Made by a program: the position numbers and the translations under genes. Below the pieces are notes generated by a model that made no database searches, was not told the origin of the DNA, and saw only the letters and a list, made by a program, of their open reading frames with translations. From NCBI GenBank assembly GCA_017468935.1, contig JAFUHJ010000047.1:1-64000 (forward strand): 64,000 bases of DNA. Reading direction: 5' to 3'. Below, piece after piece: positions 42,391 through 50,009 of the stretch; positions within the stretch are counted from its first letter, which is position 1; every line of letters begins with the position of its first letter. Source of the DNA: Candidatus Methanomethylophilaceae archaeon. GTDB taxonomy: Archaea > Thermoplasmatota > Thermoplasmata > Methanomassiliicoccales > Methanomethylophilaceae.

Positions 42391-42439
42391 CTTATTATAT
42401 CTCGGTAAAAGCGTTTGACGAATAATCCAAGTGACATCC
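42391..42439 (+). promoter_or_regulatory. Promoter and leader of the amber-containing methyltransferase gene
   Basis: TATTATATC (42391-42399) is a good TATA box, predicting a start near 42420 and a ~20-nt leader AATAATCCAAGTGACATCC before ATG 42440. AAGTGA is a weak Shine-Dalgarno match. The same TTATCCAAGTGATTAC leader precedes the binding-protein gene at 43721, which hints at common control. Confidence 0.45.
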
Positions 42440-43570
42440 ATGGTTTCAGATATCAGGAAGCAACTCGATCTTTATTGGTCCGACCGCGTTCCAGGATTGA
42501 TTGAGTATACGCGCTTCCTTTTGAGCAACGATTCCGATTTCAATCATACTCTGAGGGTTTTCCTGAAGGATATGCCGAAAGGTTCCAAGATCATCGATAT
42601 GGGCACAGGCGCCGGGCTAGTTGCGATCGAAGCGGCCAGGATGGGCTTCGAAGTCGATGCCATGGATTATAACATGAAGGTCATCGACGCAGCCATCGAT
42701 CTCTCAGAGGAGATGGGGTTGGATATAGATTTCATCGTAGGGGATGTCGAAGAACCCGAGTTACCTGAGAAGTCGTACGATGTGGTCATATCCAGGAACT
42801 GCGTGTGGGGCCTGGACGATCCGTTCAAAGCCTATTCCAGATGGAAACAGCTGCTGAAGCCCGGGGGATAGATGATAATCTTCGACGGGAACTACTACCT
42901 GTACTACAATGATGTGAACTATCTTCACCGTCGGGAACATATCGCCAAGTCGAATGGTCACAATAAAAGTATCGATGCGATCACCAATGTGAACAATGTC
43001 AATTTCGATAGGTGCGATAAGCTGGCAGAGGATCTTCCGCTCACCAAGGAGTATCGTCCCGCATGGGATGTCAGAGTATTGACCAAACTGGGCTTCAGGG
43101 ACATCAGGGCTTTGACTTTGGATACCGAAGATTATGTCTGTGAGACTGCATTCGGGCACATCCATACCCCCATGGCCTTTGGATTATGTGCCAGGCTTCC
43201 CTATTCGAACGTCATCATCAATCTGAGCGAGGATGTCGATGAGCTAGAACAGGTCCAGCATATCATCGATAAGGCGGTCGATGATGTGAGCGGTACATGG
43301 AAGATCCTTTCCAACAGGGATTGTGTTAGACTGTTGCTCACGCTGTATACTGTCAATATAACAGCATCTCAGGCTGCGGAGATCCTCGACTGTTCGTATT
43401 CTTTGGCAGCACACGACCTGAAACTGTTGACAATCTGCGGATTGGTGGTATCGGAGAAAATCGATGGAGAGAAGGTGTATAAGCTGAAGAACCGTAAGAT
43501 TGTGACCGATATAGTCGATCTCACGGCCCAGGTAAGAAATAGCCATGATTCCGGAAAAGAGAGAATGTAA
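42440..43570 (+). CDS. SAM methyltransferase / winged-helix fusion with in-frame TAG (candidate pyrrolysine at codon 144)
   Basis: Two open frames are joined in frame by one TAG (42869-42871): residues 1-143, then 145-376. The first part is a class I methyltransferase (SAM motif IIDMGTGAGLVAIEAA, ~50-65) ending WKQLLKPGG. The second begins MIIFDGNYY. LKPGG-x-hhhFDGNYY is the normal continuous beta-strand of this family, so the TAG replaces one variable residue inside a conserved stretch. The C-terminal ~292-351 is an ArsR-like winged helix (ITASQAAEILDCSYSLAAHDLKLL). TAG ends no intact gene nearby. Pyrrolysine insertion is the preferred reading. Reinitiation at the ATG directly after TAG, or a nonsense mutation, are alternatives. 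It precedes the corrinoid/iron importer. Confidence 0.7.
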
Positions 43571-43720
43571 ACATTTCTTAAACTTTTTATTACCCAGATA
43601 ATTTTTTTAAGAATTACAAATAAATAATAGATGATTCAAAAAATAATTTGAATACATTCCCACTCTATTATATATTTATAGAGCAACTCAACGCGTCGGA
43701 TATATTATCCAAGTGATTAC
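43571..43720 (+). promoter_or_regulatory. AT-rich promoter region of the binding-protein operon with inverted repeat
   Basis: 150 bp of very AT-rich sequence. The inverted repeat ATTCAAA-aaataa-TTTGAAT (43634-43653) lies just upstream of a TATA region TATTATATATTTATAG (~43667-43682), a place where an activator or repressor could bind. The leader repeats the TTATCCAAGTGATTAC seen before the methyltransferase gene. I see no cobalamin riboswitch. Confidence 0.5.
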
Positions 43721-45136
43721 ATGGATGAAAAGACAACCAAGATGGTCGTTATCATCGTTGCAGTCGTCGCAGTCGTTGCGATCGCCGCTTTCTTCATGAT
43801 GAACAATGGCGGAGGCTCCGGTGATGACAAGAAAGGAGAAATTCCTGACCTTACAGAATTCCCGGCAAGGCTTGCAGTTTTGGGAAATGCTAACTGTGAT
43901 GATTACCTCGATGACAAAGATGTTGCATATGTCGAGAAGCTCATCAAAGAATCCAACTTTGATTATGCGAAAGAGTTCATGTGCGACGCCAACTATGACG
44001 GATATATCGACGACAAGGATGTGGACGTCATCAAGAAGATGATCGATTACAAGCAGCCCACCGTCTACTACTTCGGTGTCGTCGACTACGATGTCAGGGA
44101 ATACCACACAGATGTCGCCAACCACTACGTCTGTCCTCTCATCGCACCCCCCTTCGACGCATGTCTGATCCTCGGAGCGGACCTGATCAAGGGAGCGGAC
44201 GACAGGATCGTTCCCGAGACCGGAAACGCACACGACCGTTACACCACCGCATTGGACCTTTCCAAGCTCGTTAACGTCGGAAGCTGTAACACCCCCAGCA
44301 AGGAGGCGATTGCAACCCTTCTCAAGCAGAATGACAACTGTATGACCCTTGTCTGCGGACAGCACGACTACTATGCAGACGGCTACGAGGACCTCTTTGG
44401 AAGCCAGGGTCTCCAGATTATCCGTATGGGATCTTGGGAAGGAGGAGTGGCAATCCACGGTCTTTTAACAACAGCATATCTCCTCGACAGGATGGATGAA
44501 GCATATGACTACCTTGAGTGGTATGATGGAGTTGAGGACATGGTTGCAAAGAAGATGAAGTCCGTTACAGAGAGGAAGAACGCTATCTGCTTCTACACAG
44601 ACCAGAGTGAAGCTGGAAAGATCTGCCTTCTTGGAAATACTGCTGCTGAGAACGCCATGTTGACAAAGGTTAACAGCTATGACATCGGAACAACCATCTT
44701 CAAGGCACGTGGAGGATCCTCTATTGTGACTGGAGACAAGATGCAGCTCACAAGTGAGCAGTTGGCTTCGGATGTTGCTACCTACAAGATCGACACCATA
44801 ATCGGATTGACCAATACACCTCTCCAGAGTAAGACTACTGCAGCTGTAATGGCTGAAAAGTATGCGGATTTCGCAGAAAGAATGGGTACGGCTGTTTACA
44901 GTCAGATTGATCTGTCAATTGGTGGTTATGTATTTGCTTCTGGACTTTCAGAGGTTATTGCTCAGGTCGTGATGGGATATGTCCTTTACGACGATGTTTT
45001 CACTAAAGCGGACATCGAGACAGTTTGTAACGAATACGTTGAAATGCTCGGTATTGATGAGAAGTGGAACTACGACACCATGAACCAGCTGTACTGCGGT
45101 GAGGGTGACGATAGGAACATCCTGAACATGGGATGA
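43721..45136 (+). CDS. Corrinoid/iron-complex ABC binding protein with N-terminal dockerin-like repeats
   Basis: 471 residues. One N-terminal helix (~8-27) anchors it outside the membrane. Residues ~54-76 and 88-109 are two dockerin-type calcium repeats (GNANCDDYLDDKDVAYVEKL and CDANYDGYIDDKDVDVIKKM, each D/N-x-N/D-x-D-x6-D). The rest (~115-460) is a TroA/BtuF-like substrate-binding domain. Permease and ATPase genes follow, so it is the receptor of an iron-siderophore or corrinoid importer. Codon use changes inside the gene: strongly GC-ending from ~44040 to 44465, then much richer in A/T-ending codons to ~45060, suggesting a mosaic history. Confidence 0.82.
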   Translation: MDEKTTKMVVIIVAVVAVVAIAAFFMMNNGGGSGDDKKGEIPDLTEFPARLAVLGNANCDDYLDDKDVAYVEKLIKESNFDYAKEFMCDANYDGYIDDKDVDVIKKMIDYKQPTVYYFGVVDYDVREYHTDVANHYVCPLIAPPFDACLILGADLIKGADDRIVPETGNAHDRYTTALDLSKLVNVGSCNTPSKEAIATLLKQNDNCMTLVCGQHDYYADGYEDLFGSQGLQIIRMGSWEGGVAIHGLLTTAYLLDRMDEAYDYLEWYDGVEDMVAKKMKSVTERKNAICFYTDQSEAGKICLLGNTAAENAMLTKVNSYDIGTTIFKARGGSSIVTGDKMQLTSEQLASDVATYKIDTIIGLTNTPLQSKTTAAVMAEKYADFAERMGTAVYSQIDLSIGGYVFASGLSEVIAQVVMGYVLYDDVFTKADIETVCNEYVEMLGIDEKWNYDTMNQLYCGEGDDRNILNMG

Positions 45137-45176: not shown

Positions 45177-45626
45177 ATGAACAAGCCTAATCTAACCATA
45201 GTCGCCGTGGGAGTCATCTTGTTGATGGTCATGTCGGTCATCAGTTTCATGGTATACGACGCCATGTCCCAGAAGAATCCGTATTACATCTCTCAGGAAT
45301 TCGAGGTGGAAGGGATGGTCGGAGGAGAGCATGTTACAGGTATCTGTGTTTCGGAATGGAACAATCATTCAGGTGCCGGAGATATAATTCGGTACCCTAT
45401 CGAGTTGAAAGGACTAGGGTCAGTTGATTTCGAATTCTACATCTATTTCGACGATTCGGGAAAGCCTTCGGACAGTCTTTACAAATATGATGAGTCAAAG
45501 GACAGATGGGTCGGAACCGAGTCTTCTAAAACAGTTTCTTTTCAGGTTATCGATTCGAAGAAGATCGATAATGCTGAGATAACAACAGAGGAAGCAACGT
45601 TATTCCTTAAGGAGGTAGTGAGTTGA
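45177..45626 (+). CDS. Membrane-anchored extracellular protein in the importer cluster
   Basis: 149 residues: one N-terminal helix (LTIVAVGVILLMVMSVISFMVY) and an outside domain with no family I recognise (EFEVEGMVGGEHVTGICVSEW...). ATG 45177 begins MNKPNLT; a TTG two codons earlier lies in the terminator T-run. It is placed between binding protein and permease, and the TTG start of the permease overlaps its stop, so it is probably an accessory of the importer. It shares layout with the protein at 41856. Confidence 0.65.
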   Translation: MNKPNLTIVAVGVILLMVMSVISFMVYDAMSQKNPYYISQEFEVEGMVGGEHVTGICVSEWNNHSGAGDIIRYPIELKGLGSVDFEFYIYFDDSGKPSDSLYKYDESKDRWVGTESSKTVSFQVIDSKKIDNAEITTEEATLFLKEVVS

Positions 45627-46777
45627 AGAAACTACATACAAGCGGAATACGTCGTAGTTTGGAGCAGACCAACATAAGGCTGCACGATATGAGGCATCAC
45701 GCACGTGAGAAGAATTACGAGGGGATGACCGAGGAAGAGGTCACAATCGCCCAGTATAAGGCTCACCGCTGGTCCAAGCTCATTTTCGTCTTCATCCTTC
45801 TCGCTGTCTTCATAATTCTTGCAGGAGCGGAGTTGGCGGTCGGAGACTACGACATAGACCTATGGAGCGTGTACTCTATCCTTATAGACCACATATTCCT
45901 GGGTAAACCCATCGAGACGTTAGAACAGACTGTGGTCTGGGAGTTCCGTACGCCCCGTGTTCTGACCGCGATAGCGGTCGGAATCGGACTGGCCATGGCG
46001 GGAGCAGGAATGCAGAGTATGATGAAGAACCCTCTTGCAGACCCCTATACTACCGGTATCTCATCCGGAGCCGCTCTGGGAGCAACCCTCGCGATGACTC
46101 TCGGATTCACGTTGATCAGCGGTACGTATGGAACGATCATCAATGCATTCGTGTTCGCATTGATCCCATCGCTCTTTATCATCGCCCTGTCCAAGTACAG
46201 GAAGCCCTCGCCTGCGATGATTATCCTGAGCGGTATCGCTCTGATGTACGTCTTCAACGCGGCACAGTCCTATCTGATGCTGGTCGCGGATCCGAACGCA
46301 ACATCGGCAGTCTACGCATGGACCGTCGGATCCATCGACGGAACCGACTGGGGAGACATGCCCTTCATGTGGGCCGTGGTCATCCTGGGAGCGATCATCA
46401 TGATGTATCTCTCCCGTATCCTGAATGCGATGAACTCCGGAGATTCGTACGCTAAGAGTCTCGGAATCAACACGGACCGTACCAGGGTCATCATCCTGCT
46501 CTCCGTATCGATTCTCGCAGCTGGTATCGTATCCTTCACCGGAATCATCGGTTTCGTCGGATTGGTGGCACCTCACATAGCACGTATCCTGATAGGTGCA
46601 GACAACAGGATCCTCATCCCGCTGTCCGCATTGGTCGGTGCCTGCTTGATGATGGTTGCGGACCTGTTCATACAGGCGGTCCTGAGCTTCTCCATGCCGG
46701 TCGGACTTATTACCTCATTGATCGGTGGTCCGATTTTCATGATCATGATTATCAGACAGAAGAACGAGGTGTGGTGA
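45623..46777 (+). CDS. FecCD/BtuC-family ABC importer permease
   Basis: 384-residue type II importer permease for iron-siderophores or cobalamin. An unusually long cytoplasmic N-terminal part (~60 residues, basic with acidic patches) precedes about ten helices. Family motifs include FRTPRVLTAIAVGIGLAMAGAGMQSMMKNPLADPYTTGISSGAALGA split across ~110-155, and GFVGLVAPHIARILIGADNR near the end. The TTG start 45623 is backed by GGAGGT 6 nt upstream and overlaps the previous stop. Confidence 0.92.
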   Translation: MKKLHTSGIRRSLEQTNIRLHDMRHHAREKNYEGMTEEEVTIAQYKAHRWSKLIFVFILLAVFIILAGAELAVGDYDIDLWSVYSILIDHIFLGKPIETLEQTVVWEFRTPRVLTAIAVGIGLAMAGAGMQSMMKNPLADPYTTGISSGAALGATLAMTLGFTLISGTYGTIINAFVFALIPSLFIIALSKYRKPSPAMIILSGIALMYVFNAAQSYLMLVADPNATSAVYAWTVGSIDGTDWGDMPFMWAVVILGAIIMMYLSRILNAMNSGDSYAKSLGINTDRTRVIILLSVSILAAGIVSFTGIIGFVGLVAPHIARILIGADNRILIPLSALVGACLMMVADLFIQAVLSFSMPVGLITSLIGGPIFMIMIIRQKNEVW

Positions 46778-46778
46778 C

Positions 46779-47567
46779 ATGGTAGTGGAAATAAAGGCAA
46801 CGGATCTCGGAGTCAGCTATGGAGAGTTCAGGGTCTGGCAGGGAATCAACCTAAAGTTCGACGAACCCGGTCTCATCAGTATCCTGGGACCCAACGGGGT
46901 CGGAAAATCGACCTTCATGTACTGTATCAACAAGATCCTGATCCCCACTGAGGGAAATGTCACCATCGACGGAACGGATGTCAACGACCTGTCGTTCAAG
47001 GACATCGCTCTGAAGGTGGCATATGTCCCCCAGGCTTCCAACGAGACGTTCGCGATGACCGTCATGGACACAGTCCTCATGGGAAGGTATCCCCACTCGG
47101 GATTCAACACGTCCGCGGAGGACCTGCAGATCGCAGCAGAGTGTCTGAAGATCATGAAGATATCCCATCTGGCGATGAGGAACTTCAACGAGCTGTCCGC
47201 AGGACAGCACCAGAAGGTCATGATCGCCCGCGGTCTCGCCCAGCAGCCGGACCTGCTGATGCTGGATGAGCCCACATCGAATCTGGATGTCTACAACCAG
47301 ATGCACGTGATGAGGATGCTCTCGAAGGTCGCCAAGGAGAGAGGAATCGTCATCCTCACAATCTGTCACGATCTGAACGTCGCTTCGAAGTATTCCGACC
47401 GTGTGGTCATCTTCTCCAAAGGAGAGGTCTACTGCGACGGAACGCCTCAGGAGGCGATCACAGCCGAGAACATCACCAAGGTCTACGGTGTGAAAGCCGG
47501 TATCACCGAAGTGGACGGACGTCCGTACGTCCTATTCTACGACGGTGGGGACGAGCAGTTCCAATGA
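46779..47567 (+). CDS. ABC importer ATPase, FecE/BtuD family
   Basis: 262-residue ATPase: Walker A GPNGVGKST (~38-46), signature LSAGQHQKVMIARGLAQ, Walker B LLMLDEPTSNLD and switch His in ICHDLNVA. YVPQASNETFAMTVMDTVLMGRYPH is typical of iron-siderophore/cobalamin ATPases. It starts 1 nt after the permease stop and completes the importer. A UUCG-capped hairpin terminator follows. Confidence 0.94.
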   Translation: MVVEIKATDLGVSYGEFRVWQGINLKFDEPGLISILGPNGVGKSTFMYCINKILIPTEGNVTIDGTDVNDLSFKDIALKVAYVPQASNETFAMTVMDTVLMGRYPHSGFNTSAEDLQIAAECLKIMKISHLAMRNFNELSAGQHQKVMIARGLAQQPDLLMLDEPTSNLDVYNQMHVMRMLSKVAKERGIVILTICHDLNVASKYSDRVVIFSKGEVYCDGTPQEAITAENITKVYGVKAGITEVDGRPYVLFYDGGDEQFQ

Positions 47568-47733: not shown

Positions 47734-49134
47734 ATGCACCATATCCACCCGACATCATCATCTGAGAGTGTAGATGTCCTTCTAGGGAATCCGAAGAAGG
47801 CCATCCGCTACATGGTGATCCCGGTGTTCGTCGCATTGTTGGTCGCACAGCTGAACAACTTCGTCGATAACATATGGTGTTCGAGCCTGGGTGTGGAGGC
47901 CGTATCCGCCGTCTCGCTCGTATCCACTCTGTACTTCTTCTTCCCGAGCACCGGGGCGGGAATAGGGGTGGGACTGAACGTGACGATCTCCAATCTTCTA
48001 GGGGCGGGAGACAGGGAGAGCGCCGGCGACCGCGCCACCCAGGTATTCGCCTTGACGGCCCTGGTATCGGTAGCGATAATCCCACTGCTGTTCTTCAGCA
48101 TGGATGCCTTGATAGACCTCATCGGTGGGACGGAGATCAAGGACCTCTGCAGGGAGTATCTGATACCGCTGTATCTTCTGTGTCCTTTTCTGATCCTCAG
48201 CAATGTCCTGTCAGGCATGCTCAGGGGAGAGGGTGCAGCTCATAAGTCCACAGCGATCAACATCCTCACCGCCGTTACGAACATCATCCTCGACCCGATC
48301 TTCATTTTCGGATTCGATATGGGTGTGGCTGGGGCATCATGGGCCACTATGCTCTCATCGTTGGTGGCTGTGATCGTGGGATTGAGATACTATTACACCG
48401 GAAGGACATACGTCAACCTGAGGTTCAAGGGTATGAGGTTCAAGGGATCCAGTATCTGGGATGTCATGTACGTAGGGATTCCTCAGATACTCGAGAACAA
48501 TGTCCATTCCCTGGCGAACCTCCTTCTCATGTCCCTGATCATCGGCTGCGGAGGGGCGCTGGGACTGACACTTTACAACGTCCCCTGGAAGACGGTACAT
48601 CTCCTGATGGTCCCCGCCATGGCCGTCGCGATCGCGATGGTGCCTGTACTTTCAGCCGCCAGGGGTCAGAGGAACGCAGAGAAGCTGATGGAGGGGTATA
48701 TCTATGCTTTCAAGCTGTGTCTGGGGTTGGGCCTGGCCGCGATGCTTGTCACTTTCGTCTTCGGCGATCTGTGGATGCTGCTTTTCAGCTATACCGGGGA
48801 TATGGTACAGTACCATGACGAATTGGTCAGGATCCTTTGGATATACATACCGTTCATGGTCTTCTACGGATTGATCACGTTCGGTTCATCACTGCTTAGT
48901 GCTCTGAGGAAGAGTCAGATATCCGCTGCAACCATCATCCTCCGGCAGGCGATATTCATAGGCATCATCTGGATCTGTACCATGCACGATATGGAGTGGG
49001 TGTACTGGGGAGTCACAGTATCGGAGATAATCGGTGGCATACTGATGGTCATAATTTCCTATTCGGAGTTCAAGGTCGTATATCGTGCGCTGAAATGCCC
49101 TATTCATAACCCTGCATGTAACATGGATGAATAA
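47734..49134 (+). CDS. MATE-family multidrug exporter (copy 1)
   Basis: 466-residue cation-coupled MOP/MATE transporter with twelve helices in two similar halves. GNPKKAIRYMVIPVFVALLVAQLNNFVDNIW opens helix 1, and LSGMLRGEGAAHKSTAINILTAVTNIILDPIFIFGFDMGVAGASWAT is the family signature (~165-210). ATG 47734 is chosen; a GTG at 47710 would add eight residues. It is paralogous to the gene at 53746 (G-x-P-K-x-AIR...NxFVD start). It ends in TAA. Substrate unknown. Confidence 0.93.
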   Translation: MHHIHPTSSSESVDVLLGNPKKAIRYMVIPVFVALLVAQLNNFVDNIWCSSLGVEAVSAVSLVSTLYFFFPSTGAGIGVGLNVTISNLLGAGDRESAGDRATQVFALTALVSVAIIPLLFFSMDALIDLIGGTEIKDLCREYLIPLYLLCPFLILSNVLSGMLRGEGAAHKSTAINILTAVTNIILDPIFIFGFDMGVAGASWATMLSSLVAVIVGLRYYYTGRTYVNLRFKGMRFKGSSIWDVMYVGIPQILENNVHSLANLLLMSLIIGCGGALGLTLYNVPWKTVHLLMVPAMAVAIAMVPVLSAARGQRNAEKLMEGYIYAFKLCLGLGLAAMLVTFVFGDLWMLLFSYTGDMVQYHDELVRILWIYIPFMVFYGLITFGSSLLSALRKSQISAATIILRQAIFIGIIWICTMHDMEWVYWGVTVSEIIGGILMVIISYSEFKVVYRALKCPIHNPACNMDE

Positions 49135-49199
49135 TCCAAGGTTTTTATAGTGACCTTTTTTTAGCCGAATCCGCCATCCGTTTGATCAGAGGTATCACA

Positions 49200-50009
49200 A
49201 TGAGCAAGAAATGCAAATGCGATGAAGAATGCGATTGCGAATGCTGCAACGACAGCGGTTCCGACTGCTGTGACGGATGCACATGCGAATGCTGCAAGAA
49301 CAAGCCTCCGATGATCGGAGACGACGCACCCTCATTCGTTGCCAACACAACGCAGGGAGAGATCAACTTCCCCGGGGACTTCAAGGGAAAATGGATCATC
49401 CTGTTCTCACACCCTGCCGATTTCACACCCGTATGTACCACTGAGTTCATGACCTTCGGATATATGATGAAGGAGTTCGAGGACCTCAACGTCCAGCTCG
49501 TAGGATTATCAGTGGATTCCATCTACGCCCACATCGCCTGGCTCAGGAAGATCCAGGACATCGACTGGAACGGAATGAAGAACATCGAGGTAACATTCCC
49601 TCTGATCGAGGACATCAAGATGGATGTCGCCAAGAAGTACGGAATGATCCAGCCACACGTATCCACCACACAGGCCGTCAGGGCCGTGTTCTTCATCGAC
49701 CCTGCCGGAAAGATCAGGGCCATGATCTACTACCCCCAGTCCCTCGGAAGGAACTTCGATGAGATCAAGAGGGTCATCCTCGCGCTGCAGAAGGCGGATG
49801 CGGACAACGTCGCTACCCCCGCCAACTGGAGACCCGGCGATGATGTCATCCTGCCTGCGCCCGGTTCCTGCGGTACCGCAAAGGACAGGGTCGAGACCAA
49901 GGAGGCGGACAAGATCTGCTACGACTGGTTCCTCTGCTTCAAGAAGGATAAGCCCTCCAAGGCGAAGAAGGCTCCTGTCAAGAAGGCCCCTGTCAAGAAG
50001 AAGGCATGA
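49200..50009 (+). CDS. Peroxiredoxin with cysteine-rich N-terminal extension
   Basis: 269 residues. Residues 36-235 are a Prx6-type archaeal peroxiredoxin with peroxidatic Cys79 in PVCTTEF and the C-terminal WRPGDDVILP segment; extra cysteines follow (SCGT, ICYDWFLC). The first 33 residues hold 12 cysteines in CxC and CC pairs (C5, 7, 11, 13, 15, 16, 23, 24, 27, 29, 31, 32) with many acids, like a metallothionein. The tail is Lys/Ala/Pro (KKAPVKKAPVKKKA). ATG 49200 has AGAGGT 7 nt upstream. It reduces peroxides; the extension could bind metal. Confidence 0.92.
   Translation: MSKKCKCDEECDCECCNDSGSDCCDGCTCECCKNKPPMIGDDAPSFVANTTQGEINFPGDFKGKWIILFSHPADFTPVCTTEFMTFGYMMKEFEDLNVQLVGLSVDSIYAHIAWLRKIQDIDWNGMKNIEVTFPLIEDIKMDVAKKYGMIQPHVSTTQAVRAVFFIDPAGKIRAMIYYPQSLGRNFDEIKRVILALQKADADNVATPANWRPGDDVILPAPGSCGTAKDRVETKEADKICYDWFLCFKKDKPSKAKKAPVKKAPVKKKA

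Follow-up and report, generated by a model that had tools for sequence, protein, structure and literature searches.

An in-frame amber codon in a methyltransferase-ArsR gene beside a FecCD-type importer is probably read as an ordinary pyrrolysine codon

The window analysed here, a stretch of 64,000 nucleotides from a Candidatus Methanomethylophilaceae archaeon, contains a reading frame interrupted by an amber codon, which raises the question of whether this codon acts as a switch or is simply decoded. The earlier note on this DNA proposed a pyrrolysine-gated regulator, the full protein being made only when pyrrolysyl-tRNA is available, so that control of the neighbouring importer would be tied to pyrrolysine or methylamine status. 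If this were true, no DNA-binding half would be made without charged tRNA-Pyl, and importer expression would change with methylamine supply. Our analysis favours, with good confidence, a single 376-residue protein in which UAG codon 144 is read as an ordinary pyrrolysine sense codon, giving a tolerated residue and no switch. The gene and its parts are as follows.

42440 to 43570, + strand: methyltransferase-ArsR gene, a 376-codon open reading frame with one in-frame TAG (translation, domain matches, AlphaFold2 mean pLDDT 83)
Residues about 47 to 255: class I SAM methyltransferase part
42869 to 42871, + strand: in-frame TAG, residue 144, putative pyrrolysine codon in a predicted strand segment after the PGG turn; same codon in the ortholog (L010)
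Residues about 286 to 353: C-terminal ArsR/SmtB-like winged helix

With TAG read as a residue, translation of 42440-43570 gave 376 residues and a TAA end, and O144 was the sole stop in the frame, as the earlier note had stated. The surroundings of the codon in the window protein were LLKPGG-O-MIIFDGNYYL, and the Pfam model Methyltransf_11 (PF08241) matched residues 53-147 with 62.9 bits against a curated cut-off of 21.2; the TAG thus lies inside this match, within the LKPGG-x-MIIFDGNYY stretch where the note had placed it. The ArsR-like domain that the note saw in the second half was also recovered. In the window protein the winged-helix match was weak (E 6e-5, 22.7 bits against a curated cut-off of 55), and HTH_5 reached 21.9 bits in the ortholog and 37.8 bits in one paralog (cut-off 22). 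The methyltransferase-ArsR family profile matched SmtB at 1.6e-17, and profile comparison thereby points to an ArsR/SmtB-like winged helix that is clear at the family level. An AlphaFold2 prediction on 12 family members, with pyrrolysine represented as lysine, had a mean pLDDT of 83; residue 144 was predicted with high confidence to lie inside strand 139-150, and the closest solved structures by fold were ordinary SAM methyltransferases. No MtmB, MtbB or MttB family domain was found in the window protein, as the Pfam matches were solely to SAM-methyltransferase-type families and the best 25 of 47 NCBIfam matches were likewise, together with one ArsR model.

The genome carries the machinery for pyrrolysine. 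Contig C188 contains a tRNA-Pyl gene (anticodon CUA), pylS, and ORFs for pylB, pylC and pylD, with an mtmB-like ORF upstream that has its own in-frame TAG. The pylS match was well above the curated cut-off, while pylB, pylC and pylD were assigned from ORF position and sequence rather than by model search. The search for pyl genes that the earlier note had suggested was therefore successful, with pylT-S-B-C-D beside an amber-containing mtmB on one contig. Across the order, pylS was present in 92 of 147 genomes, including all four genomes with an amber family member.

TAG stops, which the note had expected to be infrequent if the codon is decoded, were rare: in a sample of 42% of the genome, scored with a simple codon-usage gene caller and including 16 kb from the genome of the ortholog, TAG terminated 13 of the 581 called genes (2.2%), several of them being in-frame cases, compared with 2606 of 12158 intergenic stop triplets (21%). 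The share of TAG stops was 4.4% in the ortholog genome sample and 0.7% in genome G073. The same 42% sample (737 kb) held ten amber-containing ORFs, showing that the codon is not restricted to the putative regulator but also occurs in unrelated genes. A domain match crossed the TAG in seven of them, namely a glycosyltransferase, an Na/Pi transporter with a PhoU domain, an HAD phosphatase, a PLP-dependent enzyme fragment, transposases of the IS605 and IS110 types, and the methyltransferase-ArsR gene; the other three were an SNF2 helicase, a protein with a weak TPR match, and mtmB. Because domain matches cross TAG in many unrelated genes, TAG is, judging from these sequences, a general sense codon here, including in genes without a methylamine or corrinoid link. 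This agrees with what has been published for related species: 16 additional amber proteins were predicted in Ca. M. alvus, where 1.6% of stops are TAG (PMC4153887), and 46 and 25 amber genes were predicted in ISO4-H5 (PMC5011839) and ISO4-G1 (PMC4824259), respectively. Separately, recognisable genes of this genome contained more TAG codons in frame, at L050:8939-, L074:3628+, L051:1265-, L108:13129-, L081:1206+, L103:1269- and L087:162+.

Among the 147 genomes of the order, we found one close ortholog (G081:C35, public record SUSW01000034.1, MAG isolate SIG4), which showed 47% identity and a TAG at the identical codon, so the TAG is conserved in a relative, as the note had proposed to check. 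At this level of identity, a TAG at exactly the same codon is more than chance. Amino-acid identity between the two genes was 0.49 before the TAG and 0.46 after it, and the corresponding pN/pS values were 0.41 and 0.52, rough ratios with a saturated synonymous rate; these values indicate purifying selection on both halves. A contig scan with the single window protein as query gave no matches, and one family alignment took in 4 sequences. In the family alignment, paralogs beside similar importers had E, H, S, F, T, A, Y or R in place of the TAG, another point raised by the note. About 31% of columns as variable as this one were also identical between the two orthologs, so that retention of the TAG is unremarkable and needs no special function. 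Conservation at residue 144 concerns only the two sequences that carry this TAG, a test that is blind to selection for pyrrolysine, and the conserved TAG could reflect such selection. Additionally, two paralogs that are 53% identical, L024 (G073) and L028 (G088), share a TAG at a second site, just after the GD motif, and the methyltransferase-ArsR family may therefore be enriched for TAG.

These observations bear on the possibility that pyrrolysine 144 has a chemical role of its own, for example in substrate or corrinoid binding, and is kept by selection. Retention of the TAG across 53% protein divergence, and the sister pair's TAG elsewhere in this fold, would fit such a role, but the range of residues that occupy column 144 in paralogs next to similar importers makes it very improbable.

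The neighbourhood of the gene contains the following features.

43721 to 45136, + strand: binding-protein-like gene carrying a weak repeat of dockerin type; its counterparts at other loci match Peripla_BP_2
45623 to 46777, + strand: FecCD/BtuC-type importer permease (PF01032, 2.1e-88)
46779 to 47567, + strand: importer ATPase (PF00005, 4.3e-29)

The binding-protein-like gene, a small ORF, the FecCD permease and the ATPase lie 3' of the methyltransferase-ArsR gene, and the importer that the note had seen next door is confirmed as FecCD-type by the permease and ATPase matches. The ortholog has the same kind of importer neighbourhood, and most family members with enough flank adjoin a cassette of this type, as a rule together with a further, shorter methyltransferase. 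Nearly all of these cassette-adjoining members are without TAG, including a paralog on contig C207 of the same genome, which lies next to another importer of this type; the association between protein and importer is thus independent of TAG. The methyltransferase-ArsR protein is a companion of corrinoid- or iron-type FecCD importer cassettes, and we infer that it probably senses or modifies something tied to import and regulates the cassette.

Two features agree with a pyrrolysine gate: the TAG lies inside the methyltransferase fold, ahead of the DNA-binding domain, and the ortholog keeps it beside an importer. However, with so many unrelated genes carrying TAG, loss of pyrrolysine would amount to a general translation failure, and this genome has another such cassette whose paralog contains no TAG. 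Across the family, the residue in the TAG column varies, and its retention matches that of similarly variable columns. The RNA context after the TAG is also not special, as no unusually stable structure of the PYLIS type was found there in either orthologous gene (z +0.97 and +0.45). A pyrrolysine-gated regulator is therefore not supported and appears very unlikely; nor does the idea that amber read-through ties the importer to pyrrolysine status find support, given the C207 paralog.

Translational coupling could yield two chains, a truncated methyltransferase and a 232-residue winged-helix protein started from the ATG after the TAG, for which TAGATG at 42869-42874 offers an immediate start. 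The codon after the TAG is ATG in the window gene but ATC in the ortholog, so this coupling is not conserved, and the first listed in-frame ORF downstream in the ortholog starts about 37 codons past the TAG. Moreover, TAG-free family members hold both parts in one chain, and the cut would split the core sheet of the modelled methyltransferase; we give this explanation very little credence. A pseudogene or sequencing error, conceivable in a MAG that is split into 212 contigs and has an estimated contamination of 4%, is extremely improbable and appears already largely refuted by the ortholog, since the same TAG occurs in an independent genome and pN/pS is below 1 on either side of it.

Plain decoding is thus the best explanation, and read-through as pyrrolysine is well supported by the sequence evidence. 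UAG 144 would be decoded by the pyrrolysine tRNA to give a single full-length chain, and from the above we infer actual incorporation of pyrrolysine. Because the genome hardly stops with TAG, the codon can presumably arise and persist in many genes. Following the PGG turn, at a position that varies in the family, pyrrolysine would most likely be a tolerated, inherited residue, neither catalytic nor a switch.

The earlier note had also pointed to a similar leader in the methyltransferase and importer genes. The likeness is real, since ATCCAAGTGA occurs exactly at 42425 and 43707, whereas the supposed link to pyrrolysine is not supported. The palindrome TTGGAT-N5-ATCCAA is found throughout the order, and its right half lies within this leader. 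Two copies precede the genes discussed here.

42414 to 42430, + strand: degenerate palindrome copy with 2 mismatches, in the leader of the methyltransferase gene
43696 to 43712, + strand: palindrome TCGGAT-ATATT-ATCCAA with 1 mismatch, 8 bp before the importer binding-protein gene

The exact palindrome was present in 128 of the 147 genomes, while a reversed control pattern gave one match in each of two genomes. In other genera, the genes just 3' of exact copies included cobyrinate diamide synthase/CfbB-like, precorrin-2 dehydrogenase-like, CfbA-like and CbiK-like chelatase, and CobT genes, as well as genes for a cobaltochelatase-like ATPase, a CfbC-like reductase, BtuF-like binding proteins, FecCD permeases and a B12-binding protein; others were unrelated or without assigned identity. 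The palindrome is therefore probably an operator-like element of a corrinoid/tetrapyrrole regulon, and it explains the shared leader better than a pyrrolysine tie does, providing a pyrrolysine-independent link to corrinoid genes. It was not found near the ortholog's own cassette and so does not belong to the conserved features of the amber gene. The methyltransferase-ArsR protein was considered as the palindrome binder and rejected, because the motif is also present where genomes and families match this protein only weakly. A zinc-ribbon protein, which had matches in 65 of the 147 genomes, is a candidate binder: of 30 leaders checked, 13 carried the palindrome, against a background of 0.0007 per 151 bp. 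It may regulate the regulon or be one of its targets. The zinc-ribbon loci encode small proteins (L140:1526-1924, L169:1523-1963, homologs L223-L252). One-mismatch copies of the palindrome were also observed in the pyl cluster, where one separates mtmB from pylT (L039:2080-2096), and at 49123-49139 of the window, with an AhpC-type peroxiredoxin gene (49182-50000) just after. As a testable transcriptional operator in methanogens reliant on corrinoid methyltransferases, the palindrome may be a more interesting result than the amber gene.

In comparison with known systems, the window gene is likely a pyrrolysine-decoded gene of a kind already predicted in the order, and unlikely to be a gate. It extends the pyrrolysine-dependent genes beyond methylamine metabolism by a regulator-like protein whose amber codon has been retained in divergent species; standard annotation would split such genes at the TAG. 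The non-methylamine pyrrolysine proteins predicted in Methanomassiliicoccales are likewise ordinary proteins with an in-frame TAG, encoded in genomes that have pyl genes and seldom use TAG as a stop (Borrel 2014, PMC4153887, including AGI85449.1, 'putative methyltransferase'; ISO4-H5, PMC5011839), whereas the present case is a methyltransferase-ArsR fusion by an importer, with its TAG common to an ortholog. The protein appears to share a winged-helix domain, SmtB-like by profile, with ArsR/SmtB regulators, but would carry it C-terminal to a SAM methyltransferase. MtmB, MtbB and MttB also contain a UAG-encoded pyrrolysine in a methyltransferase, but belong to an unrelated family, the window protein being SAM-dependent and Rossmann-type. 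In those enzymes pyrrolysine is catalytic, whereas in the window protein it would occupy a variable column.
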